A stretch of DNA of 64,000 nucleotides from Microvirga antarctica (GTDB taxonomy: Bacteria > Pseudomonadota > Alphaproteobacteria > Rhizobiales > Beijerinckiaceae): assembly GCF_017921815.1 (NCBI RefSeq), contig NZ_JAGEMM010000001.1, positions 496,001 through 560,000 on the forward strand, given 5' to 3'. The position numbers and the translations under genes were made by a program. The notes below the pieces were generated by a model that searched no databases, was not told the DNA's origin, and saw nothing but the letters and a program-made list of their open reading frames with translations. Shown piece by piece: positions 28,079-55,987 of this stretch (position 1 is its first letter; each line of letters begins with the position of its first letter).

Positions 28079-28858
28079 TCAAACGGTCGCGGGACGCCGC
28101 CGGCGAAGCCGCCGCCCCGTCTGCTCTTCGAGCGCCGTTTCCAGAATGATGAGTCTCTGCTCGGTAATCTCGGTGATCCTGGCAGGGTCGCCATTCTCGA
28201 TCGCCTGCATCATCCTCTCGACGAGTTCGATCGCGAGCGCGAGGTCCGCCCTCGTATGCAGCGTCTTGTAGCGAAGCGGCTCCACCCAGTGCAGGAGGAG
28301 ATCCATCAATCGGACAATCAGACTGTTGCGTGTCGCGCGCGCAATCGCCAGATCGAACCGCATCGTGGCGATGATGGTCGAATGGACGTGATCCGGAGTA
28401 ATGGTTTTTGCCGACGGCTTTGGCAACGATCCCAAACCGAACGCAATCGCCTCGCGCATCAGGTCGTAGTCGTCATCTTCCGCATATTGCGACGCAATCT
28501 GGGTCACCCAGGGAAGAATCAGGCGGCGAACTTCGAGCGCTTCGTCGATCTCACCGGGGCGCATTTCGGGCGACACGGCAATAAACCCGAGCGGCACGAT
28601 CTCGCTCGTGACGAAAGTGCCGCCCCCGGCACCGGGCCTCACCGTCAGGATATTCGCCTCAACGAGCAGCTTCACGGCTTCGCGAACCGTCGGGCGGCTG
28701 ACCTGCATCTGCTCGGCCAGGCTGCGCTCGGAGGGAAGACGCGAGCCGATGCGGAAGAACCCTGTCCTTACGGCATCCGCAAGCCGCCGGGCCACCTCTT
28801 CACTGGGAAGGGTGACACGCACCGGCTCGAAATGCCTGATCGCGGCTTCGTTCTTCAT
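28079..28858 (-). CDS. FadR-subfamily GntR transcriptional regulator
   Basis: About 259 residues. The N-terminal winged helix-turn-helix is clear: VARRLADAVRTGFFRIGSRLPSERSLAEQMQVSRPTVREAVKLLVEANIL, then the wing VRPGAGGGTFV. The all-helical C-terminal ligand domain is FCD-like. ATG at 28858 is one option; an in-frame GTG at 28879 would add seven residues. It sits at the end of the HAAT importer operon, 51 bases after the last ATPase, and may be transcribed with it. It is a reasonable candidate for the AATTGGT-N11-ACCAAT sites at 33452 and 36173, because PdhR/LldR-type relatives use AATTGGT half-sites. That link is inference. Confidence 0.88.
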   Translation of the reverse strand: MKNEAAIRHFEPVRVTLPSEEVARRLADAVRTGFFRIGSRLPSERSLAEQMQVSRPTVREAVKLLVEANILTVRPGAGGGTFVTSEIVPLGFIAVSPEMRPGEIDEALEVRRLILPWVTQIASQYAEDDDYDLMREAIAFGLGSLPKPSAKTITPDHVHSTIIATMRFDLAIARATRNSLIVRLMDLLLHWVEPLRYKTLHTRADLALAIELVERMMQAIENGDPARITEITEQRLIILETALEEQTGRRLRRRRPATV

Positions 28859-28909
28859 AATACCCGTTCGTCGATCCACTCACACTGAGGCCCCACGGCC
28901 GCAACCCTG

Positions 28910-29623
28910 TCACGCCCCCAGATAGGCTTTTTCGATTGCCGGATCACGTGAAATTTCAGTTGGTGTGCCCTGCGCAACTATACGCCCCAGCTCCATGACA
29001 TAGACATAGTCAGCAACCCGGAGCGCTTGCTCGGCATTCTGCTCGACAACGAGGAACGTCGTGCCCTCACGCCTTCTGATTTCAAGAATTGCCGAGAACA
29101 GTGCCTCGAAGATCAACGGCGCGAGCCCGAGCGAAGGCTCATCGAGCAGGATCAGCTTCGGGCGCGCCACCAGGGCACGGGAAACAGCCAGCATTTGTTG
29201 CTCGCCTCCCGATAGCGACCAGCCCAATTGATCCTTTCGCTCCTTCAGGCGCGGAAAAAGCTCGTGAACCTGCGCAAGCGCGGCATCCCAGCCGCCGGGA
29301 GCCTTCCGGGTGGCGGCGGTGCGCGCAACCATCAGGTTTTCCTGCACGGTCAGGCCCGGAAACACGCGTCGGCCCTGGGGAACATGGCTGATTCCCCTGG
29401 CGACGATGGACTCGGCAAGCATGTTCTGAATGGGCTGCCCCTCGAAGAGGACTTCGCCAGACATCGCCCGCAGCAGGCCGGAGAGTGTATTCATGAGCGT
29501 TGTCTTGCCGGCGCCATTGGCGCCCAGCACAGCAACGATCTGGCCAGGCTCGACCTTCAGAGACATGCCATGCAGGACGGCGATCTCGTTGTACCCGGCG
29601 TGGAGGTTGTCAATGGTGAGCAT
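28910..29623 (-). CDS. HAAT-type ABC transporter ATP-binding protein (LivF-like)
   Basis: A 237-residue LivF-family ATPase. Walker A is GANGAGKTT, the Q-loop region is ISHVPQGRRVFPGLTVQENL, the signature is LSGGEQQMLAVSRAL, and Walker B is LILLDEPSLGLAP. The C-terminal VEQNAEQALRVADYVYVMELGRIV is typical. ATG at 29623 lies inside the 3' end of the LivG-like gene (14-base overlap). It couples ATP hydrolysis to uptake of an amino acid or related carboxylate with the LivH/M-like permeases upstream. Confidence 0.93.
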   Translation of the reverse strand: MLTIDNLHAGYNEIAVLHGMSLKVEPGQIVAVLGANGAGKTTLMNTLSGLLRAMSGEVLFEGQPIQNMLAESIVARGISHVPQGRRVFPGLTVQENLMVARTAATRKAPGGWDAALAQVHELFPRLKERKDQLGWSLSGGEQQMLAVSRALVARPKLILLDEPSLGLAPLIFEALFSAILEIRRREGTTFLVVEQNAEQALRVADYVYVMELGRIVAQGTPTEISRDPAIEKAYLGA

Positions 29624-30386
29624 GGCGCTTCCGACCGAGATAGGCGGCGATGACGTCTTCGTTCTCGCGGATGGAGCGGGGATCACCCTCGGCAATCTTG
29701 CGTCCGAAATTGAGCGCGACGATGCGGTCCACGAGGCCCATCACGAACCGCATATTGTGCTCGATGACGATGACAGCGATACCTGAGGCCTTCAAAGTTC
29801 GGATGAACACCGCCAGTTCCTCGGCTTCGCCCTGTGACAGCCCGGCGCAAGGCTCGTCCAGCATCAAGACGGACGGCTCTGACGCGAGAGCACGCGCCAC
29901 CTCGAGAAGCCTGCGCTGGCCGTAAGAGAGGCTCGAAGGCTCGGCGTCCATATAGCGGGCGATGCCGACCCGTTCGAGAAGCGAGCGAGCGCGCTCCCGC
30001 GACTCTCGTTCTTCTCGCCGAGCAAAGGGCGAGCCCAGAATGCTGCCGAAAAGGGTGGAGCGCATGCGACAGGTTCGACCGACCAGGACATTCTGCCCGA
30101 CGCTCATGCCCTGGAAGATCTGCAGGTTCTGGAATGTCCGGGCAAGGCCGGCCGACGCAATGGCGTTTGGAGGCAGGCCGGTGAGCGTGCGCCCACGATG
30201 GACAACCGTGCCGCCATCGGACGCGTAGACGCCGGAGAGGATATTCAGCATCGTCGATTTGCCGGAACCGTTGGGCCCGACAAGACCGAGAATCTGGCCT
30301 TCCTCCAGTGTGAAGCTCACACCATCGACCGCCGTGAGCCCGCCGAAGACTTTGCTGACGTTGTTGACTTCAAGAAGCGCGCTCAT
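29610..30386 (-). CDS. HAAT-type ABC transporter ATP-binding protein (LivG-like)
   Basis: A 258-residue LivG-family ATPase starting MSALLEVNNVSKVFGGLTAVDGVSF. Walker A is GPNGSGKST, the signature is LSYGQRRLLEVARAL (the Y variant is common in LivG), Walker B is VLMLDEPCAGLS, and IEHNMRFVMGLVDRI contains the switch histidine. The 5' end overlaps the LivM-like stop by 4 bases. The long in-frame extension upstream, which runs inside LivM, is not coding. Confidence 0.93.
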   Translation of the reverse strand: MSALLEVNNVSKVFGGLTAVDGVSFTLEEGQILGLVGPNGSGKSTMLNILSGVYASDGGTVVHRGRTLTGLPPNAIASAGLARTFQNLQIFQGMSVGQNVLVGRTCRMRSTLFGSILGSPFARREERESRERARSLLERVGIARYMDAEPSSLSYGQRRLLEVARALASEPSVLMLDEPCAGLSQGEAEELAVFIRTLKASGIAVIVIEHNMRFVMGLVDRIVALNFGRKIAEGDPRSIRENEDVIAAYLGRKRHAHH

Positions 30387-31351
30387 GCGATCAGCCGTGC
30401 TCGTTTGAGGAGACGACGCCCGAGACCCGCAAGCCCATCCGGCATGCCGATGACGCAGAGCCAGATGGCGATCCCGAAGACGATGAGATAGTAGTCCTTC
30501 ACGAAGCGGAGCGCCTCGGGCAGGACGATCAGGAGCGCAGCCCCGACCACCGGGCCGACGACCGTCCCGCGGCCACCGATCAACACCATGGCCAGCAACG
30601 TTGTCGTCAGCCCCAGACCGAAGAATTCCGGGCTGATGAACCGCATCGTGTGTGCGTAGAGGCTGCCGGCGATGCCCGCCAGGACGGCGCTGATCGCAAA
30701 CGACATCATCTTCATGGCCGACGTATTGACGCCGCACACTTCCGCTCCAATCTCGGCATCGCGGATCGACATGAAAGCGCGTCCAAACCGCGAAATCTTG
30801 AGGCGCCACACGAACAGGATGGCGAGAACCGCAAAGAACAGAAGCAAGTAGTAGAGCGGCGTCGCCTGTCTGAACGAGTAACCGAAGATGTCAGGCCGCG
30901 GAATCCCCGACAACCCGGACGAGCCATGGGTGAGGCTATCCGCGCTGCGGATGACCAAGCGGATGACCTCGCCCAAGGCCAGCGTCAGCAGGGTGAGATA
31001 GTGACCCTTGATCCGCAGCGCCGGAATCGCGATGAGGAAGCCGATAAATCCGGTGAGAACAGCAGCCCCCAGAAGACCGACGAGAAACGGCGCGCCCGTC
31101 GACATGACAAGGATCGCGCTCGTATAGGCCCCGATTGCGAAAAGCCCGATATGGCCGAATGACAGCAGGCCCGTGAAGCCGAGCAGAACGTCATATCCCA
31201 ATGCCAGGATGATGAAGATGAGAGCTTGATGGGCAATGCCGAGTTGGTAATTGCTCTTCAGGACGAGCGGAAGCAGAATTGCAATGACAAGCAGCACGAC
31301 GAGCGCGAGCGCCTTGTAGAGGCGAGACCTTGCGCGAACGGTATCGACCAT
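30383..31351 (-). CDS. HAAT-type ABC transporter permease (LivM-like)
   Basis: A 322-residue LivM-family permease. Helices start at LVVLLVIAILLPLVL. The conserved region GYDVLLGFTGLLSFGHIGLFAIGAYTSAIL follows, with LRIKGHYLTLLTLALGEVIRLV and the cytoplasmic ATPase-contact loop GRAFMSIRDAEIGAEVCGVN. ATG at 31351 overlaps the LivH-like stop by one base (TGATG). It forms the membrane channel with LivH. Confidence 0.93.
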   Translation of the reverse strand: MVDTVRARSRLYKALALVVLLVIAILLPLVLKSNYQLGIAHQALIFIILALGYDVLLGFTGLLSFGHIGLFAIGAYTSAILVMSTGAPFLVGLLGAAVLTGFIGFLIAIPALRIKGHYLTLLTLALGEVIRLVIRSADSLTHGSSGLSGIPRPDIFGYSFRQATPLYYLLLFFAVLAILFVWRLKISRFGRAFMSIRDAEIGAEVCGVNTSAMKMMSFAISAVLAGIAGSLYAHTMRFISPEFFGLGLTTTLLAMVLIGGRGTVVGPVVGAALLIVLPEALRFVKDYYLIVFGIAIWLCVIGMPDGLAGLGRRLLKRARLIA

Positions 31352-32226
31352 CACAGCTTCTCCGCAATCCGCTCGGGAAAGAGACCGCGCGGCCGCCACA
31401 GCAGGACCGCGATGATGATGACGAACGAGATACCATCCTTGTATTCGGACGACACGTAGGACGCCCCCAGCGCCTCGACGATTCCAATGATGAGCCCGCC
31501 GAAAACCGCGCCCTTCAGGCTTCCCCAGCCACCGACGATCGTGGCGGCCAATCCCTTCAGCATCAGACCGAAGCCCATGGTGGTCGTGACAACGAAAAGC
31601 GGCGCCACGAGAAAGCCCGCGAGACCCGCCAGGGCCGCTGAGAGGCAATAGGCGAAGGTTCGCATGTGCCGGATGCGGATGCCCATCAGTCGCGCGGCCG
31701 TGGGATCCTGCGCTGTCGCCTGCAGGCGAAGGCCCATATCGGTCCCGGTCAGCCAGATCTGCAATCCGCCAATCAGGATGACAGCGGCTGCGATGATCAG
31801 CATGTTGTGCGGGAAGACGGAGATCCCGCCGATATCGATCACCCCGGTCCCGAAGAAGGTGGGAAGCGTCAGCGCATACGGTCCCCAGATGAGGGTCGCC
31901 AAGGCCTGCATCGTCACGGCAATGCCGATGGTCGCCGTCACCGTGGTCAGGAAGTGCTTGCCTTCAAGAGGCGTGAACACGATCCATTGGAAGAGGTAAC
32001 CCATCGCGGTGCAGATCAGCACGGTGAGAAGAAGCGCCAGCCAGAGCGGCAAGCCGAAGACGCTGACCAGCGTCACCCCGATGAACCCCCCATAGGTGAC
32101 CCATTCGCTATAGGCGAAGTTGACGACGCCGGCGGCGGCGATCGTCAGCGTGAAACCGAGCGCCACGAAGGCATAAATGCAGCCCATCGTGACGCCGCTC
32201 AGGGCAACTTGGAGGAAAGTGTCCAT
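31351..32226 (-). CDS. HAAT-type ABC transporter permease (LivH-like)
   Basis: A 291-residue LivH-family permease. It starts MDTFLQVALSGVTMGCIYAFVALGFTLTIAAAGVVNFAYSEWVTYGGFIG, a standard LivH N-terminus. It continues with GLRLQATAQDPTAARLMGIRIRHMRT as the ATPase-contact loop and GGWGSLKGAVFGGLIIGIVEALG near the end. It starts 16 bases after the binding-protein gene stops, in the order binding protein, H, M, G, F, regulator. Confidence 0.94.
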   Translation of the reverse strand: MDTFLQVALSGVTMGCIYAFVALGFTLTIAAAGVVNFAYSEWVTYGGFIGVTLVSVFGLPLWLALLLTVLICTAMGYLFQWIVFTPLEGKHFLTTVTATIGIAVTMQALATLIWGPYALTLPTFFGTGVIDIGGISVFPHNMLIIAAAVILIGGLQIWLTGTDMGLRLQATAQDPTAARLMGIRIRHMRTFAYCLSAALAGLAGFLVAPLFVVTTTMGFGLMLKGLAATIVGGWGSLKGAVFGGLIIGIVEALGASYVSSEYKDGISFVIIIAVLLWRPRGLFPERIAEKL

Positions 32227-32242
32227 CGGGAGATCGCGGCTG

Positions 32243-33364
32243 CTATTTCACGTTTGCTGCAAGCTTCAGCTTACCGTTCTCGATCTGGACGATGGCAACG
32301 CTTTCGCCGCCGTCTCCCTTGTCCGCATAGGTGTAGGTGTTGCCGATGCCCTTGTAGTCCTTGACGGTCCGCAACTCCTTCACCAGCGCGTCCTTGTCGG
32401 TGCCGACCTTGGCAATCGCGGCCGCCACCATCATGACGCCGTCATAGTATTCAGCTGCCGAGTAGTCAGGCTCAAGGTTGAAGGTCTTGCGGTACCGATC
32501 AGCCCAATCCTTGTGAGCCGGGTCGTCGGCGGGCAGTGAATCCACGGTCCCGTAGATCCCGTTCGAGGCATCCGGCTGGTAGAGCTTGAGGGTCGTGGGC
32601 AGCACGCCGGCATTCGACAGGATGACCTTCATGGTGAGGCCAAGCTGCTTGATCTGTTGAACGGCGACGACAAAGTTCGGGGGATCACCCGACACAATGA
32701 GAACATCGGCATTGGCATTCTTGATGCGCAACAATTGCGGCGTCAGATCGCGATCGGCGCCCTCGAAAGTCTCGACGATAGCGGGCTTCATGTTGAGCGA
32801 CTTCAGCGTATCTTCAATCGCGATCCGCCAGCCATTGCCGTATTCATTGCTCGAGCGCAGCACGGCGATGTTTTTTGCCCCAAGGTCTTTGACGGCGAAT
32901 CGCACGGCTGCGGCAGGAACGCGAACGTCGCTCGTCCGAATGCGGAACAAGGGGGGCACACCCTTCTTGTCGAGGGCGAGCTGCGCCGATGCTGCGCCGG
33001 TGAGCGTCGGAATATTCTCGTCCTGGATGGTGCCGATCTGCGAGAGCACGAATCCACTCAATGTGGTGTTCATGATCGCAACAGGATCCTGGCCGATGAT
33101 GCGGTTGAAGGCATTCACTGCGCCGGTCTGCTCGCTACCCGTGTCCTCAATGACGAGGTTGATCTTCTTGCCGCCGATCCCGCCCTTGGCATTCAGGTCC
33201 TCAACCGCGAGCTTTGTCCCGTTGACGAGCGGTGCCTCTCCGCCCGCGAAGGCACCGGTGGTTCCCACCACCATGCCAAGTGTCAACGTGGATTGGGCGG
33301 ATGCCGAAGTGAGCATGCCAGCCGTCAGAAGGGCGGCGGCGACCGACCTTGAAATCATTCGCAT
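32243..33364 (-). CDS. HAAT-type ABC transporter substrate-binding protein (Peripla_BP_6)
   Basis: A 373-residue periplasmic type I binding protein. The Sec signal is residues 1-23 (ends TSASA). The mature chain begins TLTLGMVVGTTGAFAGGEAPLVNGTKLAVEDLN, followed by KINLVIEDTGSEQTGAVNAFNRII and a hinge near NIAVLRSSNEYGNGWRIAIED. Relatives bind branched-chain amino acids, aromatic acids or urea; the ligand here is not determinable. It is the first gene of the importer operon. Its leader contains the AATTGGT-type palindrome that is also found in front of the neighbouring SDR and hydroxyacid oxidase genes, suggesting a hydroxyacid-like ligand (inference). Confidence 0.93.
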   Translation of the reverse strand: MRMISRSVAAALLTAGMLTSASAQSTLTLGMVVGTTGAFAGGEAPLVNGTKLAVEDLNAKGGIGGKKINLVIEDTGSEQTGAVNAFNRIIGQDPVAIMNTTLSGFVLSQIGTIQDENIPTLTGAASAQLALDKKGVPPLFRIRTSDVRVPAAAVRFAVKDLGAKNIAVLRSSNEYGNGWRIAIEDTLKSLNMKPAIVETFEGADRDLTPQLLRIKNANADVLIVSGDPPNFVVAVQQIKQLGLTMKVILSNAGVLPTTLKLYQPDASNGIYGTVDSLPADDPAHKDWADRYRKTFNLEPDYSAAEYYDGVMMVAAAIAKVGTDKDALVKELRTVKDYKGIGNTYTYADKGDGGESVAIVQIENGKLKLAANVK

Positions 33365-33451
33365 GGTATTCCCTCTTGTTTCTGCAGGGCGGCATGGCTG
33401 CCCCGGATAGACCCATCGGCGCGGCTCGTCGCGGCCGCTTTCCCGTTAGCT

Positions 33452-33475
33452 AATGGTATACTCAACTAACCAATT
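33452..33475. promoter_or_regulatory. Putative operator AATGGT-N11-ACCAATT upstream of the HAAT operon
   Basis: The inverted repeat AATGGT / ACCAATT with an 11-base spacer lies between the hydroxyacid oxidase stop (33483) and the binding-protein start (33364). It matches 36173-36196 in half-site and spacing. Half-sites resemble those of PdhR/LldR-type GntR regulators. Confidence 0.55.
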
Positions 33476-33482
33476 AAGGCTG

Positions 33483-34697
33483 TCAAACTAACCTTTCGGC
33501 TTTTTCGTATTGCGCCATCCGGTTGGCGTCCGCCCGATACAAGCATGTCGGATCAAGCTGAGCGATCGAGGGCCGTCCGAGGAGCGCCAACGCTCTGGCG
33601 AATTCTTCGCCGAGCGTGTCGATGGCCTTCCTGACGCCGGCCTCGCCGCCGGCAGCGAGCCCATAAAGAACGGGTCGGCCGAGCAGGACGCCGTCCGCCC
33701 CTAGCGCAATCGCCTTGACGATATCGGTCCCCCGCCGAAAACCGCTATCGATCAGGATCGTCATGTCACCACCGAACCGACTTGCGATTTCGGGCAACAC
33801 TGTCATGGGCGAGATGGCCCCGTCGAGCTGGCGGCCGCCGTGATTGCTGAGCACCACGCCGTCGACTCCGATCCCGAGCGCCTGTTTCACATCCACGGGC
33901 GCAAGCAACCCCTTCAACACAAGCTTGCGCGGCCACAACGACCGCAACCAGGAAACGCGCTCCCAATCAAGATCGGGATCGACCTCCCGCCGCGACCACG
34001 TTGCCGATGCTGCGAGAGTCTGCTGGTCCGGCGGCAGGACTTCCAGAAGGTTCTGGAAGGCTGGAATTCCGCGCAGCACGACGTCGCGCATCCACCGGGG
34101 GTGAAGCAGGACGTCGACTTTGTTTCGAAAGGTCGGTTCGGTTGCCCTCCGATAGTTGCGCCGGTCCCATTCACGGTTGCCAAAAACCGACGCATCAGTG
34201 GTGATCACAAGGGCTTCACAATTGGCCGCAAGGGCCCGCGCGACCAGTCGTTCCATGAACGGCCGAGAGCGGAAAACATACAGCTGCATCCAGTGGCGAA
34301 GACCCGGAACCGCTGCGATGTCCTCAATCGATGCGTTGGAGACAGTGCTCTGAATAAAGGGGATGCCGGCAGCCGATGCGGCGCGCGCGAGCGAGACATC
34401 GCCACGATGGGAGAACAGGCCGCAAAATCCCATCGGGGCGATCATGAGCGGCAATTTCGCCGGCTGATCGAAAATTGTACGCGTGGTGTCGACGGCTCCG
34501 GCTTTGACCAACGTCGTCGGAACAAACGCAAGGTCCTCGAACACGGCGCGATTGCGCCGAAGCGTTACCTCGTCTTCCGCACCGCCCTCAAGATATTCAA
34601 AAACGAAGGACGGCAAGCGACATTGCGCCATCGCGCGCAGATCCGCGATCGAACAGGCCCTTGCCACATCACCGCTCGCCCGAAGCCGGCGTTTCAT
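33483..34697 (-). CDS. FMN-dependent alpha-hydroxy-acid oxidase/dehydrogenase
   Basis: A 404-residue TIM-barrel flavoprotein of the L-lactate/mandelate dehydrogenase and glycolate oxidase family. Visible elements are LPSFVFEYLEGGAEDEVTLRRN (N-terminal Tyr near the active site), LMIAPMGFCGLFS, and the FMN-binding Lys in LVLKGLLAPVD. Also present are the catalytic His/Arg loop VVLSNHGGRQLDGAIS and the phosphate site DSGFRRGTDIVKAIALGADGVLLGRP. It oxidises an L-2-hydroxyacid to the 2-oxoacid. It lies 6 bases after the FAD oxidase gene and is its operon partner; together they would cover both stereoisomers (inference). Confidence 0.94.
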   Translation of the reverse strand: MKRRLRASGDVARACSIADLRAMAQCRLPSFVFEYLEGGAEDEVTLRRNRAVFEDLAFVPTTLVKAGAVDTTRTIFDQPAKLPLMIAPMGFCGLFSHRGDVSLARAASAAGIPFIQSTVSNASIEDIAAVPGLRHWMQLYVFRSRPFMERLVARALAANCEALVITTDASVFGNREWDRRNYRRATEPTFRNKVDVLLHPRWMRDVVLRGIPAFQNLLEVLPPDQQTLAASATWSRREVDPDLDWERVSWLRSLWPRKLVLKGLLAPVDVKQALGIGVDGVVLSNHGGRQLDGAISPMTVLPEIASRFGGDMTILIDSGFRRGTDIVKAIALGADGVLLGRPVLYGLAAGGEAGVRKAIDTLGEEFARALALLGRPSIAQLDPTCLYRADANRMAQYEKAERLV

Positions 34698-34703
34698 GGC
34701 GGA

Positions 34704-36104
34704 TCACGCTTCCCGAAGGGTGAGAACTTTGCCGGTGTTGAGAATATTGTTGGGATCGAGCGCGAGCTTGATCCGGTTCATCAGCGCCAGTTCCTCGACG
34801 GATCTTGAATAGCCAAGATACGGCTTCTTCAGCAATCCAATCCCGTGCTCGGCCGAGATGGTCCCGCCCGCGCGGCCGACCGCACCATAGACCAGCTCGG
34901 CAATCTCGTCATGGGGCTGATGATCGCCCTCTGAGGGAATGTTTGACACCAGATGGAGATTGCTGTCGCCCACATGGCCGTAGCAGAGCACGATCGCATC
35001 CGGCCAGCGGCGCTTAAAGGCATCCTCGATTGCGGTCACGAAGGCGCCCATCTCGCTCGTGGGGAGGCCGAGGTCGAAGGCTGTCAGCGGCCCCATGAGC
35101 CGGCCATACTCCGAGACACTCTCGCGGACAGCCCAGAGATCCTTCGAATCCTGATCCGACACGGCAACCACCGCATCAGAGACGCAGCCCTCTTCGAGGC
35201 AGTCAGCCAGGACGCTCTGAAGAAGATCATTGTTTTGCTCCGCGTCGAGCCCGCTCGCCTCGATGAGGACATAACATCCGTGCGGGGCGGCGAAAGGACG
35301 GCGGAGATGCGGCAGCCCGGCTGTCATAAAGTCATAAAAACTCGGCCACATGACTTCGAAGGACGTCAGGGACGATCCCAGCCTCGCCCGCGCGGCTTTC
35401 AGAAGCCCGAGCACCGCGTCGAAGTCGCGGCAGCCGCAGAAGGCGCTCGCCATCGCACCGGGTTTTGCCTGCAGCCGCAGCACAGCCCGTGTCACGACGC
35501 CAAGGGTGCCCTCGGAGCCGATAAACAGCTGCTTGAGGTCATAGCCGGCGTTGTTCTTCAGCATCTTGTTCAGCGAGCGGACAATCGTCCCGTCGGCCAG
35601 GACGACCTCGATGCCGAGGACATGCTCGCGCGCCATCCCATAGCGAATGACCCTGTTGCCGCCGGCATTGGTCGCGAGGTTGCCGCCAATCGTACAGGAA
35701 TCGCGCGCGCCAAGATCGAGTCCGAAGAAGAGCCCGACTTCGTCAGCAGCGGCCTGGATCGTGGCAAGGGGCGTGCCGGCGAGCACCGTCATGGTCGCCA
35801 TCACGGCGTCGATCTCCTCGATGCCGCTCATCCGATCCAGAGACAGCGCAACGCCGTCGCTGACTGGTTGCGCGCCACCGGCAAGGCCTGTCAGCCCTCC
35901 TTGGGGCACAACCGGCACCTCATATTGATTGCAGATCTTGAGAACAGCCGCCACACCCTCCGTACTGCGCGGCCGGGCGAGTGCGAGCGGGCGAACGGGA
36001 TCGAGCCCACTCCAATCCGCGTGAAATCGCGGCGCAATCGCATCCCCAAAAACAACATCTGCGCCGAGGGCGGCGCCCAGCGCGCCAATAAATTCATCCG
36101 TCAT
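34704..36104 (-). CDS. FAD-linked D-2-hydroxyacid dehydrogenase (GlcD/D-lactate dehydrogenase type)
   Basis: A 466-residue VAO/PCMH-family flavoprotein. The FAD-binding domain is shown by VRPLALARPRSTEGVAAVLKI, PVVPQGGLTGLAGGAQPVSDGVALSLDRM, DSCTIGGNLATNAGGNRVIRYG and GSEGTLGVVTRAVLRL. The C-terminal domain ends with SAEHGIGLLKKPYLG and LDPNNILNTGKVL, as in D-lactate and D-2-hydroxyglutarate dehydrogenases. ATG at 36104 has AAGG upstream and is preferred to a 96-residue-longer frame crossing the promoter region. It diverges from an SDR gene at 36217 across a shared putative operator. Confidence 0.93.
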   Translation of the reverse strand: MTDEFIGALGAALGADVVFGDAIAPRFHADWSGLDPVRPLALARPRSTEGVAAVLKICNQYEVPVVPQGGLTGLAGGAQPVSDGVALSLDRMSGIEEIDAVMATMTVLAGTPLATIQAAADEVGLFFGLDLGARDSCTIGGNLATNAGGNRVIRYGMAREHVLGIEVVLADGTIVRSLNKMLKNNAGYDLKQLFIGSEGTLGVVTRAVLRLQAKPGAMASAFCGCRDFDAVLGLLKAARARLGSSLTSFEVMWPSFYDFMTAGLPHLRRPFAAPHGCYVLIEASGLDAEQNNDLLQSVLADCLEEGCVSDAVVAVSDQDSKDLWAVRESVSEYGRLMGPLTAFDLGLPTSEMGAFVTAIEDAFKRRWPDAIVLCYGHVGDSNLHLVSNIPSEGDHQPHDEIAELVYGAVGRAGGTISAEHGIGLLKKPYLGYSRSVEELALMNRIKLALDPNNILNTGKVLTLREA

Positions 36105-36172
36105 AGCAACCGACCTTCGGCGCAAAACAGGCGCGCCTCTCAAATTTCTTGCATGGATAGTTTGACGGCCAC

Positions 36173-36196
36173 AATTGGTAATGTAAACATACCAAT
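36173..36196. promoter_or_regulatory. Putative operator AATTGGT-N11-ACCAAT between divergent genes
   Basis: A near-perfect inverted repeat with an 11-base spacer sits between the divergent FAD oxidase and SDR genes, 20 bases before the SDR ATG. The same half-sites and spacing occur at 33452-33475. A TTGACG at 36162 could be the SDR -35 element, placing the palindrome over the promoter. Confidence 0.6.
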
Positions 36197-36216
36197 AAGT
36201 AAAAGGGAGCGAATTG

Positions 36217-36978
36217 ATGGCAAATATCTCAGACGGACGTCTTGCGGGCAAAATGGCCTTGGTGACCGGTGCGGCCCAGGGACTGGGCCTCGCGATTGCA
36301 CGATCGTTTCTCGAAGCGGGGGCAACGGTTGCACTGACCGACGTCAACGAGCAGGTCAGTGCCGTGGCACGCGAACTCGATCCGACTGGCAAGCGGGCTT
36401 CCGGCTACGTCCTCGACGTTCGGAGCGAATCGGCCTGGACAGCAGTCTACGACAAGGTTGGCGCGGCGCTGGGCCCGATCGACATTCTGGTCAACAACGC
36501 CGCCATGACGATCTCGAAATCGGTTTGGGATATCCCCGCCGACGAGTGGGACGACGTCATGGCCGTCAACCTGAGAGGCGTGTTTTTTGGCTGCCGTGTC
36601 GCTGGCCGACACATGCGTGAACGCGGAAAGGGCCGCATCATCAATCTTTCATCGCTTGCGGGCCAGCGCGGCGGCGTGGTGGCCGGCGCCCATTACTCGG
36701 CGTCAAAGGCCGGCATCATCGTCCTGACCAAGTGCTTTGCACAGGAGCTCGCCGGCAAGGGCGTCACGGTCAATGCCATCGCGCCGGCGGCAATCGAAGG
36801 CCCGATGACGAAGGAAATGCCGGCCGAAAAAGTTCAGGGCCTCGCAAAGACGATCCCGGTTGGACGCCTCGGAAGCGATACCGAAGTCGGCGCCGCCGCA
36901 GTCTACCTCGCAGCCGACGATGCCGGCTTCGTCACAGGCGCCACCCTCGACGTGAATGGCGGCGTCTTCATGCGCTAA
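36217..36978 (+). CDS. SDR-family NAD(P)-dependent oxidoreductase
   Basis: A 253-residue classical SDR. TGAAQGLG is at residues 17-24, with Asp in LTDVNE after strand 2 (NAD preference). NNAA is at 93-96 in place of NNAG, and Ser146, Tyr160 and Lys164 (YSASK) form the active site. The C-terminus VTGATLDVNGGVFMR is standard. ATG at 36217 has GGGAG upstream. It is divergent from the D-hydroxyacid oxidase and co-directional with the small protein at 37025, and it likely acts on a related hydroxy or keto compound. Confidence 0.93.
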   Translation: MANISDGRLAGKMALVTGAAQGLGLAIARSFLEAGATVALTDVNEQVSAVARELDPTGKRASGYVLDVRSESAWTAVYDKVGAALGPIDILVNNAAMTISKSVWDIPADEWDDVMAVNLRGVFFGCRVAGRHMRERGKGRIINLSSLAGQRGGVVAGAHYSASKAGIIVLTKCFAQELAGKGVTVNAIAPAAIEGPMTKEMPAEKVQGLAKTIPVGRLGSDTEVGAAAVYLAADDAGFVTGATLDVNGGVFMR

Positions 36979-37024: not shown

Positions 37025-37405
37025 ATGGCTGTCGAGTTCGTTGTGCCTGAAGTTCCGAAACCCTATCGCGTCATTCTGCTGGGCGCCGCCACCAACGGTT
37101 GGTTTGAGGCGACCGACGAGGAGCGCCGCGAGAAGGTTCTGCCGCGATTCAAGGAAATGATCGCCGAATGGACCGAGATGGGCGCCAAGGTTCTGGCCAC
37201 CGTCGATGACGACCTGTTCATGGTGGGTCAGCCGGGGGCACCCGATTTCACCTGGTACCTGATCTTCGAGATTCCATCCCTCGAGACCTTGGCGGCGATG
37301 ATCCATTGCGTTCGCCGCACCTCCAACGGCGTGCGGCTCGATCGCTATATCCGCATCGAAGGCCGCATCGGACGGCCATTCTTCCTCCTTGAAGGAAAGC
37401 ACTGA
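37025..37405 (+). CDS. Small conserved-looking protein, possibly Darcynin-like; function unknown
   Basis: A 126-residue soluble protein with no signal peptide. Pattern: a strand (YRVILLGA), then WFEATDEERREKVLPRFKEMIAEWTEMGAKVLATVDDDLFM, a WYLIFEIPSLETLAAMIHCVRRTSNG stretch and a final strand. The strand-helix-strand layout with an ERR helix and a late helix resembles small ferredoxin-like alpha/beta proteins (Darcynin or EthD-like size class), but I do not recognise it firmly. It begins 46 bases after the SDR and is probably on the same transcript. Confidence 0.65.
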   Translation: MAVEFVVPEVPKPYRVILLGAATNGWFEATDEERREKVLPRFKEMIAEWTEMGAKVLATVDDDLFMVGQPGAPDFTWYLIFEIPSLETLAAMIHCVRRTSNGVRLDRYIRIEGRIGRPFFLLEGKH

Positions 37406-38045: not shown

Positions 38046-38816
38046 ATGAGCAACCCCATTCTCCAGGTGCGCGACCTTGCGCGCAGCTTTGGCGCCCTTC
38101 GCGCCGTCGATGGAATCAACCTGTCCGTTCAACCTGCGACGATGACGGGCCTGATCGGCCCGAATGGCGCGGGAAAATCCACGCTGTTCGGGTTGATTGC
38201 TGGTGCGCTGAAACCCGATACGGGTGAAATCGTCTTTGCCGACCATCGAATCGACGGACTCTCACCGGATCGCATTTTCCGGACAGGCCTTGCCCGAACG
38301 TTCCAGATTCCCCGCCCCTTTCCGAAGATGACGGTCCTCGACAACGTCATGCTGGCAGCGCTCGATCAGGCCGGTGAGAAATTCTGGAACAATTGGTTTG
38401 CGCTCGGCACGGTGCGCAAGCAGGAAAAGCTCATTCGAGACCGCGCCATGGAGGTTCTCGGTTTTACGGGTCTGGCCGCGAAGGTGAACGATTTTGCCGG
38501 GCAGTTGTCGGGCGGGCAGCAAAAGCTGCTTGAACTGGCGCGTGTCCTCATGACCGACCCCCAATTGATCCTGCTCGACGAACCGGCCGCCGGCGTGAAC
38601 CCGGCGCTGCTCGACACGCTGATTGACAAGATCATCGCATTGCACGCGCGGGGAGTAGGCTTCCTGATCATCGAGCACAACATGGACATGGTCATGAGCA
38701 TCTGTAACCCGATCGTGGTGATGGCTCAGGGGCGTGTAATTTTCGAGGGGGACGCCGACGGCGTTCGCGCCGACCAGCGGGTTCTCGACGCCTATCTCGG
38801 AGGTGTCGAGCCATGA
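38046..38816 (+). CDS. HAAT-type ABC transporter ATP-binding protein (LivG-like)
   Basis: A 256-residue LivG-family ATPase starting MSNPILQVRDLARSFGALRAVDGINL. Walker A is GPNGAGKST, the signature LSGGQQKLLELARVL, Walker B LILLDEPAAGVNP and the switch IEHNMDMVMSIC. It leads a five-gene importer operon in the order ATPase, ATPase, permease, permease, binding protein, the reverse of the importer at 28.9-33.4 kb. No ribosome site is visible before its ATG. It overlaps the next gene by ATGA. Confidence 0.93.
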   Translation: MSNPILQVRDLARSFGALRAVDGINLSVQPATMTGLIGPNGAGKSTLFGLIAGALKPDTGEIVFADHRIDGLSPDRIFRTGLARTFQIPRPFPKMTVLDNVMLAALDQAGEKFWNNWFALGTVRKQEKLIRDRAMEVLGFTGLAAKVNDFAGQLSGGQQKLLELARVLMTDPQLILLDEPAAGVNPALLDTLIDKIIALHARGVGFLIIEHNMDMVMSICNPIVVMAQGRVIFEGDADGVRADQRVLDAYLGGVEP

Positions 38817-39544
38817 GCGAGCCTGTCCTCATCGCCCGCGACGTCGTCGCGGGCTACGTTCCCGGAATGCCGATTTGCCACGGCGTGTCTATCGATGTCC
38901 GTCCCGGTGAGATCGTGACTATCATTGGTCCCAACGGAGCAGGCAAATCGACCTTCCTGAAGGCACTGGCGGGCCTGGTGCTGTTCGAAAGCGGCACGGT
39001 GCACTGCCTCGGACAGGACGTCTCGGGACGCCCCTCGCACGAACTGATTCAACTCGGCCTCGGATTTGTACCGCAGACCGGGAACGTCTTTACCGGGCTG
39101 ACCATCCACGAGAACCTCGTCATGGGCGGCCATACGCTCTCGGCGGCCGAGCTCAAGACCCGCCTCGCGCGGACCTACGAGCAATTTCCTCTGCTGGCCG
39201 AGCGGCGATCGGCCACCGGCGGCGTGCTTTCGGGCGGACAACGCCAGACCCTTGCCGTGGCCCGGGCGTTGATGACGGACCCGCGGGTGATCATGCTGGA
39301 TGAGCCGACCGCAGGCCTCTCCCCGCGCGTGGTCGGCGAAGTGTTTGCAAGCCTGCGCGGCCTCGCCCAAGAAGGCGTGGCGGTGCTGATGGTGGAACAG
39401 AACGCGAAAGCGGCCCTGCGCATTTCAGACCGGGGTTATGTCCTGGCCGAAGGGCGGAACCGCATGGCGGCGTCGGCCGCCGATCTCCTCGTCGATCCAG
39501 CGGTCGGTGAAGCGTTTCTCGGTGGAAAAAGGCACGCACGATGA
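38813..39544 (+). CDS. HAAT-type ABC transporter ATP-binding protein (LivF-like)
   Basis: A 243-residue LivF-family ATPase. Walker A is GPNGAGKST, the Q-loop region LGFVPQTGNVFTGLTIHENLVMGG, the signature LSGGQRQTLAVARAL, and Walker B VIMLDEPTAGLSP. It is coupled to both neighbours by ATGA overlaps. It pairs with the preceding LivG-like protein to power the LivH/M-like channel. Confidence 0.93.
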   Translation: MSEPVLIARDVVAGYVPGMPICHGVSIDVRPGEIVTIIGPNGAGKSTFLKALAGLVLFESGTVHCLGQDVSGRPSHELIQLGLGFVPQTGNVFTGLTIHENLVMGGHTLSAAELKTRLARTYEQFPLLAERRSATGGVLSGGQRQTLAVARALMTDPRVIMLDEPTAGLSPRVVGEVFASLRGLAQEGVAVLMVEQNAKAALRISDRGYVLAEGRNRMAASAADLLVDPAVGEAFLGGKRHAR

Positions 39545-40443
39545 TCGGTCAAGCCATCGCGGACGGGTTTCTCACAGGTGGCATCCTGGCGCTCGGCGCC
39601 ATCGGCGTGTCCTTGAGCTCGCAGATTCTGAAATTCGCCAACTTCTCTCATTCGGAATTGCTGACCTGGGGGGCGTATATCGCGCTCACCTTCACGATGT
39701 TCGCGACGGCCGGCGCCCCGATTGGACCCCTCTCTTTTGGGTGGTCGTTGCTGTTTGCGGTTCTTCTCGCCGGCGTTCTTACAGGGGTGCTGGCGATCAT
39801 CGTCGATCGCCTGGTCTTTCGCCGCCTGCGCTCGCGTCATGCGAACAGTCTGACCATGGTGTTCGCGAGTTTCGGCGTCGCACTGATCCTGCGCAATCTG
39901 GTGCTTCTCATCTGGGGGCCGGAGGCGCAATATTACACAAGCGAGCTCCAGATCGCGACCGAAATCCTCCCCGGCATTCGCCTCCTGCCCGATCAGGTTT
40001 TCGTCCTCGGCCTCACCATCGTTCTGGTGATCGGCCTGCACCTCATTCTCAAGTACAGCCGCCTGGGCATGTCGATGCGGGCCATGGCGGAAAGCCCCGC
40101 GCTGGCACGCGTCTGCGGGGTCAAGATTGAAACGGTCGTGCGTTGGACCTGGGTGGTCGCGGGCATGCTTGCGGCAATCGCGGGCATCTTCTCGGGCCTC
40201 ACCGTTCAGTTGCGACCGGAAATGGGCTTCAATCTCTTGCTTGCCATTTTGACAGCGGCGATTCTCGGTGGGTCCGGGAGCCTGTTCGGCGCCGTCATCG
40301 GTGGCCTCGTCGTTGGGCTGGCCGAGAACCTTTCGGTGCTCGTGATCCCGGCCAACTTCAAGGCCGCCGTCCCTTTCATGATCCTGATCCTCGTTCTGTA
40401 CTTTCGTCCGCAGGGTCTCCTCGGCAAGTCGGAGACAAAGTGA
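39541..40443 (+). CDS. HAAT-type ABC transporter permease (LivH-like)
   Basis: A 300-residue LivH-family permease. It starts MIGQAIADGFLTGGILALGAIGVSLSSQILKFANFSHSELLTWGAYIAL. The ATPase-contact loop is RLGMSMRAMAESPALARVCGVKIE, followed by GGSGSLFGAVIGGLVVGLAENLSVLV and the terminal LYFRPQGLLG. The start overlaps the LivF-like stop by 4 bases and it is followed 3 bases later by LivM. Confidence 0.94.
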   Translation: MIGQAIADGFLTGGILALGAIGVSLSSQILKFANFSHSELLTWGAYIALTFTMFATAGAPIGPLSFGWSLLFAVLLAGVLTGVLAIIVDRLVFRRLRSRHANSLTMVFASFGVALILRNLVLLIWGPEAQYYTSELQIATEILPGIRLLPDQVFVLGLTIVLVIGLHLILKYSRLGMSMRAMAESPALARVCGVKIETVVRWTWVVAGMLAAIAGIFSGLTVQLRPEMGFNLLLAILTAAILGGSGSLFGAVIGGLVVGLAENLSVLVIPANFKAAVPFMILILVLYFRPQGLLGKSETK

Positions 40444-40446
40444 GCC

Positions 40447-41388
40447 ATGGGTATCGTCTCGTATCTCATCTTCTTTGCCATCGTCGTCTCGATCCTGAGC
40501 ATCATTACGCTTGGGCTCAATCTCCAATGGGGCTCCACCGGCGTCTTCAACGCGGGGGTCGTCGGCTTCTATGCCGTCGGCGGCTACACCTACGCCATCC
40601 TGACCGCTCCCGGGCGCCCTGAACTGCTCGTCAATCTCGAACTGCCTTGGATTCTGGGCGTGGTCGGCGCGCTCATTGCCTCGGCCATTGCAGCCCTGCT
40701 CGTGGGCCTGGCCACGATGAAGTTGCGAGGCGATTACCTTGCGATTGCGACCTTCGGCATCGCCGTCACCATCCAACTCATCGCCCTGAACTGGGAAGGC
40801 CTCACCGGAGGCAGTCTCGGCATGACCTCCGTCCCACGTCCGTTGAGCGGGTTCTTTGAGACGCCATTCACCTACAACGTGTTCTACCTCTGCCTGTCTG
40901 CGGGATTCTGCCTTCTGACGTATTGGGCGCTCGAACGCATCGTTCGCTCTCCCTGGGGGCGCGTGCTGCGGGCCATTCGCGAAGACGAGGGCGCGGCGAT
41001 CGCTCTTGGCAAGGACGCCGCGACTCTGCGACTTCAGGCCTTCGTGCTCGGGTCGACGGTCATGGGTCTCGCTGGCGCGCTCTACGTGGGTTTCATCGGC
41101 TTTGTGAGCCCGTTCGATTTCGTGCCGATCATCACCTTCCAGATCTGGACGATGCTGATTGTCGGCGGCAGCGGAAACAACAAGGGCGCGGTGCTCGGCA
41201 CACTGGTCGTCTGGGGGTTGTGGAGCGCGAGCGGCACCCTCATCTCCAAGATTCTGCCGGCGGCTTTCCAGACGCAGGGCGGCGCCGTTCAAACCATTCT
41301 TATCGGTCTCGTCCTCGTGCTGACCCTTTTGTTCAAGCCGGGCGGCCTGATCGGCGAAGAGCCGACGACCTCACGTCACGCGGGGTAG
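40447..41388 (+). CDS. HAAT-type ABC transporter permease (LivM-like)
   Basis: A 313-residue LivM-family permease. It starts MGIVSYLIFFAIVVSILSIITLGLNLQWGSTGVFNAGVVGFYAVGGYTYAIL. It then has MKLRGDYLAIATFGIAVTIQLIALN, the contact loop GRVLRAIREDEGAAIALGKDAATLRL and GGSGNNKGAVLGTLVVWGLW. The long antisense open frame over this gene is a GC-bias shadow. It precedes the binding-protein gene by 59 bases. Confidence 0.93.
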   Translation: MGIVSYLIFFAIVVSILSIITLGLNLQWGSTGVFNAGVVGFYAVGGYTYAILTAPGRPELLVNLELPWILGVVGALIASAIAALLVGLATMKLRGDYLAIATFGIAVTIQLIALNWEGLTGGSLGMTSVPRPLSGFFETPFTYNVFYLCLSAGFCLLTYWALERIVRSPWGRVLRAIREDEGAAIALGKDAATLRLQAFVLGSTVMGLAGALYVGFIGFVSPFDFVPIITFQIWTMLIVGGSGNNKGAVLGTLVVWGLWSASGTLISKILPAAFQTQGGAVQTILIGLVLVLTLLFKPGGLIGEEPTTSRHAG

Positions 41389-41447
41389 TGTCGGCCGACA
41401 GAGTTGGCTTGCGAGTGCCGAAAACTCGCCAAAAGAGGGAGAGCAGG

Positions 41448-42725
41448 ATGAAACGATCGATCGGATTACTGGCGGGAGCGGTGCTGGTTTCAGCATGGAT
41501 GCCGGCCCAGAACGCACAGGCGCAGAATGCAGTGTCCTGCCCGGTAAAACTCGGCGGCATCCTGCCGTTGACCGGCTCGATGGGTCCTGTGGGCAAGCGC
41601 ATCTCGGACAGCGCGCAGCTTGCCGTGAAGCACATCAATGAGGGCGGCGGCATCAAGGGATGTCCGGTGGAATTCATTCTTCGCGATGACCAAGGTCAAC
41701 CGACCGTCGGTGTCGACGCGGCCAAATACCTGGTTGAAGTCGAGCGCGTCCCCGCGATCACAGGGTCGGTTTCGAGCGGCGTGACGCTGCCCATCCTCAC
41801 CTCGGTGACAGTCCCCTCCAAGGTCCCGGTGGTGAGCTGCTGCTCGACGGCCGCGACTTTCACGACCCTCGCCCAGGAAGGCAAGACCGGCGGCTTCTTC
41901 TTCCGCACGCTGCCGACTGTGAAGACGCAGGCCTACGCTTCCGCAAAGGTGGCGGCCGATCGCGGCTTCAAGCGCGTCACGATGATCTACATCAATACCG
42001 ATTTCGGAACCGGCATGGTGAAGGACTTCACCAAGGCGTTCAACAAGCTCGGTGGCCAGGTCCTGAAGACAGTTGCCTACAACGAGAACCAGCCGTCCTA
42101 TCGGGCCGAGGTGAACAGCGCGCTGTCCGACAAGCCAGACGCCGTGTTCCTCGTCGCTTTCCCGCAGGACGGGGCGACGATGACACGCGAGTGGATTTCG
42201 CTCGGCGGCACCCAGAATCTGATCCTGAACAACGCGCTGCGCACCCCGGAATACGTCAAGGCGGTGGGTGGCAAGTTCCTGCAAAATGCGTTCGGGATGG
42301 ATAATGCATCGACGTCCGGACCGACGGTGGAATCCTTCAAGCAGAGCTTCCAGGCCGCCTACAATGCGAGCCCGGACGGACCCGGCATCTATAACCAGTA
42401 CGATGCCGTCATGATCCTGGGTCTTGCCATGAACCTCGCGCCCGATCTCAGCGGCACGGCCATCCGCGACGCCATGCGCAAACTTCAGTCGCCGGACGCC
42501 ACCGTGGTTGGCACCGGCCCGGAGGAGTTCAAGAAGGCCATCGCACTGATCAAGGACGGAAAGGCCATCCGGTATTCGGGCGCAACCGGCCCGCTCGAAT
42601 TCGACGCCAACGGCGATGTGAGCGGTGCGGCGTTGATCTGGAATGTCAAGGGCGACCAGCTCGGCACAGACCAGACGCTGACCGTCGAGGAGATGAGCAA
42701 GCTGATCAAGCAGATCGACGGCTGA
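41448..42725 (+). CDS. HAAT-type ABC transporter substrate-binding protein (Peripla_BP_6)
   Basis: A 425-residue periplasmic type I binding protein. The Sec signal is about residues 1-27 (ends NAQAQ). The mature chain begins VKLGGILPLTGSMGPVGKRISDSAQLAVKHIN, with VEFILRDDQGQPTVGVDAAKYLVE, the SGVTLPILTSVTVPSKVPVVSCCSTAATFT ligand region and QYDAVMILGLAMNLAPD near the end. Paired cysteines (VSCCST) are unusual and could form a disulphide with Cys in SCPVKL or KGCPVEF. It closes the importer operon and a stem-loop follows its stop. Confidence 0.93.
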   Translation: MKRSIGLLAGAVLVSAWMPAQNAQAQNAVSCPVKLGGILPLTGSMGPVGKRISDSAQLAVKHINEGGGIKGCPVEFILRDDQGQPTVGVDAAKYLVEVERVPAITGSVSSGVTLPILTSVTVPSKVPVVSCCSTAATFTTLAQEGKTGGFFFRTLPTVKTQAYASAKVAADRGFKRVTMIYINTDFGTGMVKDFTKAFNKLGGQVLKTVAYNENQPSYRAEVNSALSDKPDAVFLVAFPQDGATMTREWISLGGTQNLILNNALRTPEYVKAVGGKFLQNAFGMDNASTSGPTVESFKQSFQAAYNASPDGPGIYNQYDAVMILGLAMNLAPDLSGTAIRDAMRKLQSPDATVVGTGPEEFKKAIALIKDGKAIRYSGATGPLEFDANGDVSGAALIWNVKGDQLGTDQTLTVEEMSKLIKQIDG

Positions 42726-42742
42726 TCACCATCACGACCCTC

Positions 42743-42772
42743 GCATGCCTGGCGCGTTGGCGTCAGGCATGC
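42743..42772 (+). terminator. Stem-loop after the HAAT binding-protein gene
   Basis: GCATGCCTG / CAGGCATGC is a perfect 9-base stem, extended by CGC-gttg-GCG above one mismatch, 18 bases after the stop. It separates the importer from the GntR gene at 42812. There is no T-run, so it may partly terminate or stabilise the abundant binding-protein mRNA. Confidence 0.65.
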
Positions 42773-42811
42773 ACCCCTCAACGTCGACACGGCATACGAC
42801 ACAGGACGTCG

Positions 42812-43561
42812 ATGACAGATCTCAGGCTGGAACCCGTCTCCTCGCGCACGACGATCCAGGACGGCGTTTACAACCGGCTGCGCCATGCGCTCATGACCGG
42901 GTTCTTCGATCCCGGCCAGACCCTCACCATTGCGGCCCTGGCCGAAGCGTTCGGCACCAGTCACATGCCCGTGCGCGAAGCGTTGCGTCGCCTCGGCGCC
43001 GAGAACGCGCTCGATGTCGCGCCCAACGGCTCGACCCATGTCCCGCCGGTCAACACCGCCCGTCTCGACGACCTTTGTATCGCCCGCATTGCTGTCGAGG
43101 GCACGGCCATCGCCCTTTGCACGCCCCATGTCGAGCCAGAGACGGTGCGCTATCTGGAGGCAAACATCCGCGACCATGTGCTGAAAGGCCGTGACGGCGA
43201 TGTTTTCGGGATGCTCGCGAACAACCAGGATTTTCACTTCACCCTCTATCGTGCATCGGGATCGGATGTCCTTATGCAGCTGATCGAAACGCTCTGGCTC
43301 CGCTTCGGGCCTTATATGCGGTTGCTGACCCAACGCATGGAGCCGTTGCTGAAATCCGGCGACCTCGGTTCCGACCCCGTTCACCATCGCAGCATTCTCG
43401 ACGCGGTGAAGCGTGACGACGGAGCGGCCGCGCGCCAGGCATTGGTCGAGGATATCCACGCCACGCAATCTCTTCTGCGCACCATTTGCCCCCTCGACGA
43501 CGATTTCATGGCCGCAGGAACCGCAAACCGATTCCCGTCCAGCACAGGAGTTGCCCGATGA
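42812..43561 (+). CDS. GntR-family transcriptional regulator with FCD domain
   Basis: A 249-residue regulator. The N-terminal winged helix is IQDGVYNRLRHALMTGFFDPGQTLTIAALAEAFGTSHMPVREALRRLGAENALDV. The FCD ligand domain shows the metal-binding pattern Asp-x-x-His in NNQDFHFTLY and the later His pair in DPVHHRSILDAVKRDDGAAARQAL. It is coupled to the downstream alpha/beta hydrolase by an ATGA overlap, so it probably controls the degradation of the hydrolase's substrate and its own transcript. Confidence 0.92.
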   Translation: MTDLRLEPVSSRTTIQDGVYNRLRHALMTGFFDPGQTLTIAALAEAFGTSHMPVREALRRLGAENALDVAPNGSTHVPPVNTARLDDLCIARIAVEGTAIALCTPHVEPETVRYLEANIRDHVLKGRDGDVFGMLANNQDFHFTLYRASGSDVLMQLIETLWLRFGPYMRLLTQRMEPLLKSGDLGSDPVHHRSILDAVKRDDGAAARQALVEDIHATQSLLRTICPLDDDFMAAGTANRFPSSTGVAR

Positions 43562-52322: not shown

Positions 52323-52491
52323 TAATTTCCAGACGAGAACGGTGCCCGCGGCAACCGGGTTCGCGTCGCCCCGCACGGGACGCGAAAACGAATTCCCAGC
52401 CGAAGGCCGGGAAGCCCGCAGAGGCTCCGCAAAAGACGACGCCTCATCGAGCCGTCCGGCCTTCGATCAGGCTCATCAACAGAGGGTCGAC

Positions 52492-54027: not shown

Positions 54028-54055
54028 TCGCTCGAACAACGCCGTTTCGCCAGAG

Positions 54056-54080
54056 GAGCCCGGCAGATCCTGCCGGGTTC
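54056..54080 (+). terminator. Stem-loop between binding-protein and permease genes
   Basis: CCCGGCAG-atc-CTGCCGGG extended by weaker pairs starts 29 bases after the binding-protein stop, followed by TTCTCGATTT. It lies inside the operon, so it is probably an attenuator or mRNA-stabilising hairpin keeping binding protein in excess of permease. Confidence 0.6.
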
Positions 54081-54115
54081 TCGATTTCCGCTTCCTGAAA
54101 CGGAAAGGATACGAG

Positions 54116-55986: not shown

Positions 55987-55987
55987 C

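Follow-up and report, generated by a model that had tools for sequence, protein, structure and literature searches.

PdhR and LldR of E. coli, two GntR regulators of the FadR subfamily, control pyruvate and lactate genes. Their boxes are AATTGGT-N3-ACCAATT and AAnTGGTCnGACCAnTT, compared with N11 at the locus described here. The original prediction for this locus had assigned PdhR and LldR a spacer of about 3, which the papers on the two regulators bear out. According to the available part of PMC4494728, sites of the FadR subfamily typically follow TKGT/ACMA with 3 nt (2 nt in some groups) between GT and AC, NanR and BioR being the exceptions, and weak extra boxes have been reported 7-12 nt from the centre. 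E. coli NanR resembles the present case in being an FCD-type GntR repressor with GGT-containing half-sites and several dimers per promoter; the other head of each dimer rests on poor sequence (PMC8012715, available sections). DhdR of Achromobacter denitrificans is a D-2-hydroxyglutarate sensor encoded beside the D-2-hydroxyglutarate dehydrogenase gene, which it represses until it is released by D-2-hydroxyglutarate (PMC8651671, available sections).

The window, by which we mean the whole 64,000-nt stretch of DNA analysed, contains a cluster of importer, oxidase and regulator genes, as follows.

28079..28858, minus strand: GntR-family regulator with an FCD domain; last gene, after livF; proposed binder of both sites
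28910..29623, minus strand: livF-type ATPase of the importer (longer ORF scanned)
29610..30383, minus strand: livG-type ATPase of the importer (longer stretch scanned)
30383..31351, minus strand: livM-type permease (longer ORF scanned)
31351..32226, minus strand: livH-type permease
32243..33364, minus strand: substrate-binding protein SBP (Peripla_BP_6); first gene behind site 1
33483..34697, minus strand: FMN-dependent 2-hydroxyacid dehydrogenase; nearest solved relative (S)-mandelate dehydrogenase
34704..36104, minus strand: FAD-linked oxidase, GlcD / D-2-hydroxyglutarate dehydrogenase-like
36217..36978, plus strand: SDR oxidoreductase; first gene behind site 2
37025..37405, plus strand: small IacB-like protein; second gene behind site 2

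A pattern scan of the window allowing up to two mismatches found AATTGGT-N11-ACCAAT exactly at 36173-36196 (site 2) and, with one mismatch, as AATTGGT-N11-ACCATT at 33452-33475 on the minus strand (site 1). The two sites lie where they had been placed, site 1 ahead of the HAAT-type importer and site 2 between the divergent FAD oxidase and SDR genes. They had also been described as sharing their half-site sequence at an exact N11 spacing; the spacing stood, but full half-site identity did not, since the mismatch in site 1 means that the sites differ by a letter and that the half-sites are not both identical. The four matches in the window (two places, each on both strands) compare with 0.37 expected, and none of 100 shuffles reached four. 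Across the whole genome the simple pattern showed no enrichment, either at up to one mismatch (45 places versus 58 for the control) or in a second scan (16 places versus 65). The pattern alone is therefore weak evidence, and a regulon cannot be defined from it; the case is carried by a longer element and its conservation, and not by the bare pattern.

Conservation of the paired sites was looked for in related loci and was present. Scanning genome contigs with the FAD oxidase yielded 80 loci, ten of which contained an ortholog of the window regulator (L005-L010, L016, L020, L022 and L053). Testing covered the 79 loci that offered 150 bp or more of sequence upstream of their FAD oxidase gene; L020 starts inside the oxidase gene, which left nine of the ten regulator loci testable. 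The motif taken from the window, TTGGTA-N9-TACCAA with up to three mismatches and up to 250 bp upstream of the oxidase, was present in 9/9 loci with the regulator ortholog versus 6/70 without it (Fisher p 2.4e-8, computed as if the loci were independent, although six of them, from Neorhizobium/Rhizobium, are closely related). At up to three mismatches no other spacing between N0 and N25 was comparable, the next being N13 (3/9 versus 0/70), and the GGT-N3-ACC form was found in 2/9 regulator loci compared with 9/9 for the GGT-N11-ACC form. At a loose cut-off of four mismatches the canonical N3 was also above background (8/9 versus 16/70), as were several other spacings. One of the six motif loci without the regulator, L031, carries the full element described below on a contig that terminates within the oxidase gene; the remaining five do not resemble one another.

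Searches with the regulator only yielded four loci with more flank, one of which (L087) is the same contig as L053. In all three loci obtained from regulator homology alone (L086, a plasmid of Terrarubrum flagellatum, L088 and L089), the motif occurred at exactly N9 between divergent genes. The L088 site lies between SDR and FMN dehydrogenase genes, and the 18 kb retrieved for this locus yielded no FAD oxidase, so the motif tracks the regulator rather than the oxidase.

Judged from sequence, the real element is longer than the palindrome noted earlier, at about 45 bp. It runs in the order AWGGWnA, TTGACN, RCC, four bases, TTGGTAA, a -10-like A and T, and TACCAAW. TTGGT-N11-ACC brackets a -10-like hexamer (xAnnnT), the spacer to the -35-like TTGACN is 17 bp, and this TTGACN is itself enclosed by a second, weaker pair, GGW-N10-RCC. 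The parts lie at the two sites as follows.

36153..36197, plus strand: full element, site 2, 45 bp
36174..36196, plus strand: main palindrome of site 2, ATTGGTA-N9-TACCAAT (GGT-N11-ACC); precedes the SDR gene
Parts of site 2: GGA 36155-36157; -35-like TTGACG 36162-36167; GCC 36168-36170; -10-like AAACAT 36185-36190
33451..33495, minus strand: full element, site 1, 45 bp
33452..33474, minus strand: main palindrome of site 1, ATTGGT-N11-ACCATT; precedes the SBP gene of the importer operon
Parts of site 1: GGT 33493-33491; -35-like TTGACA 33486-33481; GCC 33480-33478; -10-like GAGTAT 33463-33458

By its coordinates, the FMN dehydrogenase gene reaches into site 1, where its stop codon sits within the TTGACA and its end overlaps the upstream pair. 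Site 1 also carries AACTAACC twice, 22 bp apart, as a literal repeat. The flank columns played no part in site selection, and their conservation was counted over 11 representatives: C-4 was present in 11/11, T-12, T-11, C-5 and G-18 in 10/11 each, and A-21, A-9 and G-19 in 9/11 each. GG[TA] occurred in at least 4/11 representatives at two positions only, -19 (8/11) and +3 (11/11), and [AG]CC likewise at -6 (9/11) and +17 (11/11); it is this recurrence that points to the weaker pair besides the main one. With the window excluded from training, a weight matrix of 45 columns built from nine related sites ranked the two window sites first (54.7 and 41.8 bits); the next match was site 1 reversed (10.8), and the best unrelated place in the 64 kb scored -0.4.

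The promoter-like layout faces the SDR gene at window site 2 and in L053, L088 (where the upstream half of the element is displaced by one base) and L089. It faces the SBP gene at window site 1, at the second site of L016, and in L022 and L086. L016 repeats the window arrangement in kind, with one site before the oxidase and another before the SBP gene. Behind the outward-facing promoter of L031 and of the Neorhizobium loci no gene was recognised, suggesting that the element acts on the oxidase gene there or that the promoter is vestigial. A sigma-70 promoter scan of 33360-36230 returned no site accepted by the rules of the scanner, from which we take the -10-like hexamers to be poor; the putative promoter assignment rests on conservation and not on a generic promoter scan. 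Because TTGACN, the 17-bp spacer and xAnnnT all belong to the conserved block, the conserved letters might be mostly promoter and the palindrome incidental. This is extremely improbable, however, as the letters of GGT, ACC and the outer GGW/RCC do not belong to a sigma-70 promoter and yet are among the most constant, and as the block is missing from loci without the regulator, L031 excepted.

A model of the element was built from 12 sites, including both window sites. We used it to look for a wider regulon across the whole genome, where 150 of 569 candidates were scored, and found the two places in the window cluster and none beyond them. Over 84 sequence sources the model returned 16 sites, all in the window, in regulator-bearing loci or in L031, before the next match at E 0.086; 12 of the 16 were training sites, and the N11 spacing was exact in 16/16. 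Among 199 genomes of the family, the model matched all four that have the regulator, with best E values between 1.1e-8 and 1.45e-3, and gave weak matches in three that lack it (E 0.011-0.046). The ORFs were read in two of these three regulator-free neighbourhoods, and no regulator was seen. One such match, L097:1501-1544 (E 0.011), is an element-like GGT-N11-ACC in a congeneric genome that lacks the regulator; it lies near an ORF with, by eye, RTX-like repeats.

The proposed link between the regulator 28079-28858 and the sites was upheld by the co-occurrence, by the loci found from the regulator only, by the uniqueness of the model matches in the genome and by a comparison of 254 window ORFs, each of at least 80 codons. 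In this comparison the regulator was the sole ORF with a relative at least 45% identical in all seven element-bearing loci compared. LysR-type regulators recognize T-N11-A, which GGT-N11-ACC formally fits, and Terrarubrum has a LysR gene a few genes off; another regulator, for example of LysR type, might read the sites, with the GntR gene no more than a companion of the cluster. We consider this very unlikely in view of the 254-ORF result, which stands against it, and of the position of the site over the promoter core, as suits a repressor. The binder comparison covered the regulators encoded in the window and in the fetched loci, and the window's other GntR gene (42812-43561), which has no match in any element-bearing locus, was rejected as the binder. 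The regulator 28079-28858 is a well-supported candidate, and by far the best one, for the protein that would bind both sites.

As had been predicted, a FadR-type (FCD) regulator closes the importer operon: the gene at 28079-28858 (minus strand) follows livF and encodes an N-terminal GntR winged helix (PF00392, 65.1 bits versus a cut-off of 27), beginning at residue 19, and a C-terminal FCD domain (PF07729, 46.4 bits versus 24.3), with six C-terminal helices in the predicted model. Among 25 of the 26 NCBIfam models matched, none reached its cut-off; the regulator scored 69.7 bits against the LldR equivalog model (cut-off 311), 63.0 against that of PdhR (cut-off 330) and 65.0 against the NanR model (cut-off 260). 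Its structure model had a mean pLDDT of 81, and the top Foldseek matches were solved FCD regulators, the best by E-value being DhdR (9jpj, 2.8e-9, 26% identity in the structural alignment). The TM-scores were about 0.4-0.5, perhaps low because the two domains are seated differently. All aligned orthologs carry RFD at a position that we take to be where FCD regulators usually have a metal-binding histidine. The metal-binding histidines have likely been lost in this lineage, and with RFD in place of histidine the ligand pocket may be metal-free.

Four things can be read in the DNA itself: the element, the fact that it is conserved, its presence alongside the regulator and its promoter-like layout. 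From these we infer binding, repression and ligand release: the regulator 28079-28858 is predicted to bind both sites, to repress two promoters and to be released by a ligand, with a probability of roughly 0.8. The regulator would occupy the -35 and -10 regions of both promoters and exclude RNA polymerase. Since the half-sites flank the -10-like hexamer, occupancy should block the polymerase, and the position of the element would suit a repressor. The promoter at site 2 would drive the SDR and IacB-like genes, and the one at site 1 the importer operon, whose last gene encodes the regulator; release would come from a substrate or product of the 2-hydroxyacid oxidases, an arrangement that would combine negative autoregulation with induction.

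The N11 spacing had been read as one helical turn, but GGT and ACC lie 14 bp from each other, centre to centre, and the shift relative to the usual N3 is 8 bp. With less certainty than for binding and repression, and on the basis of base counting, each strong GGT half-site may anchor one dimer, such that GGT-N11-ACC would hold two dimers in a NanR-like manner. The pseudo-dyads of the two dimers would be offset by 8 bp, the amount by which the spacer of 11 exceeds the usual 3; a step of this size also occurs between the repeats of the E. coli NanR operator, which start 9 and 8 bp apart as read from the genome. The weaker upstream GGW-N10-RCC pair would add a second two-dimer unit about two helical turns away.

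Alternatively, a single regulator dimer could spread its heads to span both half-sites of GGT-N11-ACC. The exact spacing in every site and the near symmetry of the main pair are consistent with such a dimer, and residues 71-100, between the DNA-binding and FCD domains, are weakly predicted in the monomer model (block pLDDT 57-59), raising the possibility of a flexible linker. However, the half-site centres would be 14 bp apart compared with 6 bp for N3, and solved FadR-type complexes keep their DNA-binding heads close together, which counts against a single spread dimer; we regard it as rather unlikely. Returning to two dimers on the main pair, we tentatively propose, at somewhat less than even odds, a small lineage of FCD/GntR repressors with a four-half-site operator around -35 and -10 (GGW-N10-RCC, then GGT-N11-ACC about 22 bp on) and one asymmetrically bound dimer per strong half-site. 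If this reading is true, the spacing rule would be 3 plus one 8-bp dimer step, with no fixed palindrome.

The nearest relatives of the FAD oxidase were the putative oxidoreductase 3pm9 and D-2-hydroxyglutarate dehydrogenase (it is also D-lactate dehydrogenase-like), and that of the FMN enzyme was (S)-mandelate dehydrogenase. These relatives would fit a 2-hydroxyacid without naming one; the inducer may, at a fair guess, be a 2-hydroxyacid that is imported, perhaps an aromatic one. The protein encoded at 37025-37405 had no Pfam or NCBIfam match, and its structure model has the strand/helix order E-H-H-E-E-H-E. It is 88, 85 and 79% identical to its counterparts in three other SDR-bearing loci, exceeding the conservation of its neighbours, and shares about 30-38% identity with proteins encoded on 12 plasmids, among them one annotated as IacB in a cluster with an SDR. 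That IacB and SDR are paired here outside an iac cluster may be a hint to the substrate.

Directly downstream, at 38046-43561 (plus strand), lies a second HAAT-type importer operon followed by the GntR-like gene 42812-43561. Further along, an ORF run at 52342-57847 (plus strand) is 70-83% identical to L016 (Rhizobium populisoli), in which transporter genes lie just upstream of an FMN dehydrogenase of the window's kind; the two modules may travel together.

With the window genome counted each time, regulator orthologs were found in 4/199 genomes of the family, 2/397 of the order, 1/385 of the class and 1/398 of the phylum; elsewhere they occurred in genus g20 (2/2), in another family (1/8) and in one plasmid record. 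This sparseness indicates that the cluster is rare and patchy. Within its own genus the regulator was present in 1/48 genomes, the window's own, so the cluster 28079-36978 looks acquired.

Searches for FadR-subfamily sites typically use TKGT-N2-3-ACMA, which an N11 operator with the same half-site would escape, and N11 operators could explain regulators of this large family for which no site has been recognised. The locus also offers a two-promoter regulon that comprises an uncharacterised importer, D- and L-2-hydroxyacid oxidases, an SDR and an IacB-like protein.

Searches of open-licence papers brought up, among the papers listed, no description of GntR operators with a wide spacer (N11, 11 bp) or with two dimers on overlapping half-sites. 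As counted from sequence, the spacing of 11 in all sites here differs from the 2-3 described for the FadR subfamily. The NanR operator consists of direct GGTATA repeats, whereas the main pair here is inverted, and NanR cooperativity requires a 32-residue N-terminal extension (PMC8012715, available sections), compared with a GntR domain that starts at residue 19 in the window regulator. The DhdR operator, GTTATCAGATAAC, is by eye unlike both window sites, and the DhdR operon, unlike the window cluster, is without an importer, as far as the available sections of PMC8651671 describe it; in the same sections, the repressor overlaps the -35 region, which resembles the layout in the window. The likeness to E. 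coli PdhR and LldR extends to the half-site TTGGT/ACCAA, the combination of wHTH and FCD domains, and the association with 2-hydroxy- and 2-oxoacid genes.
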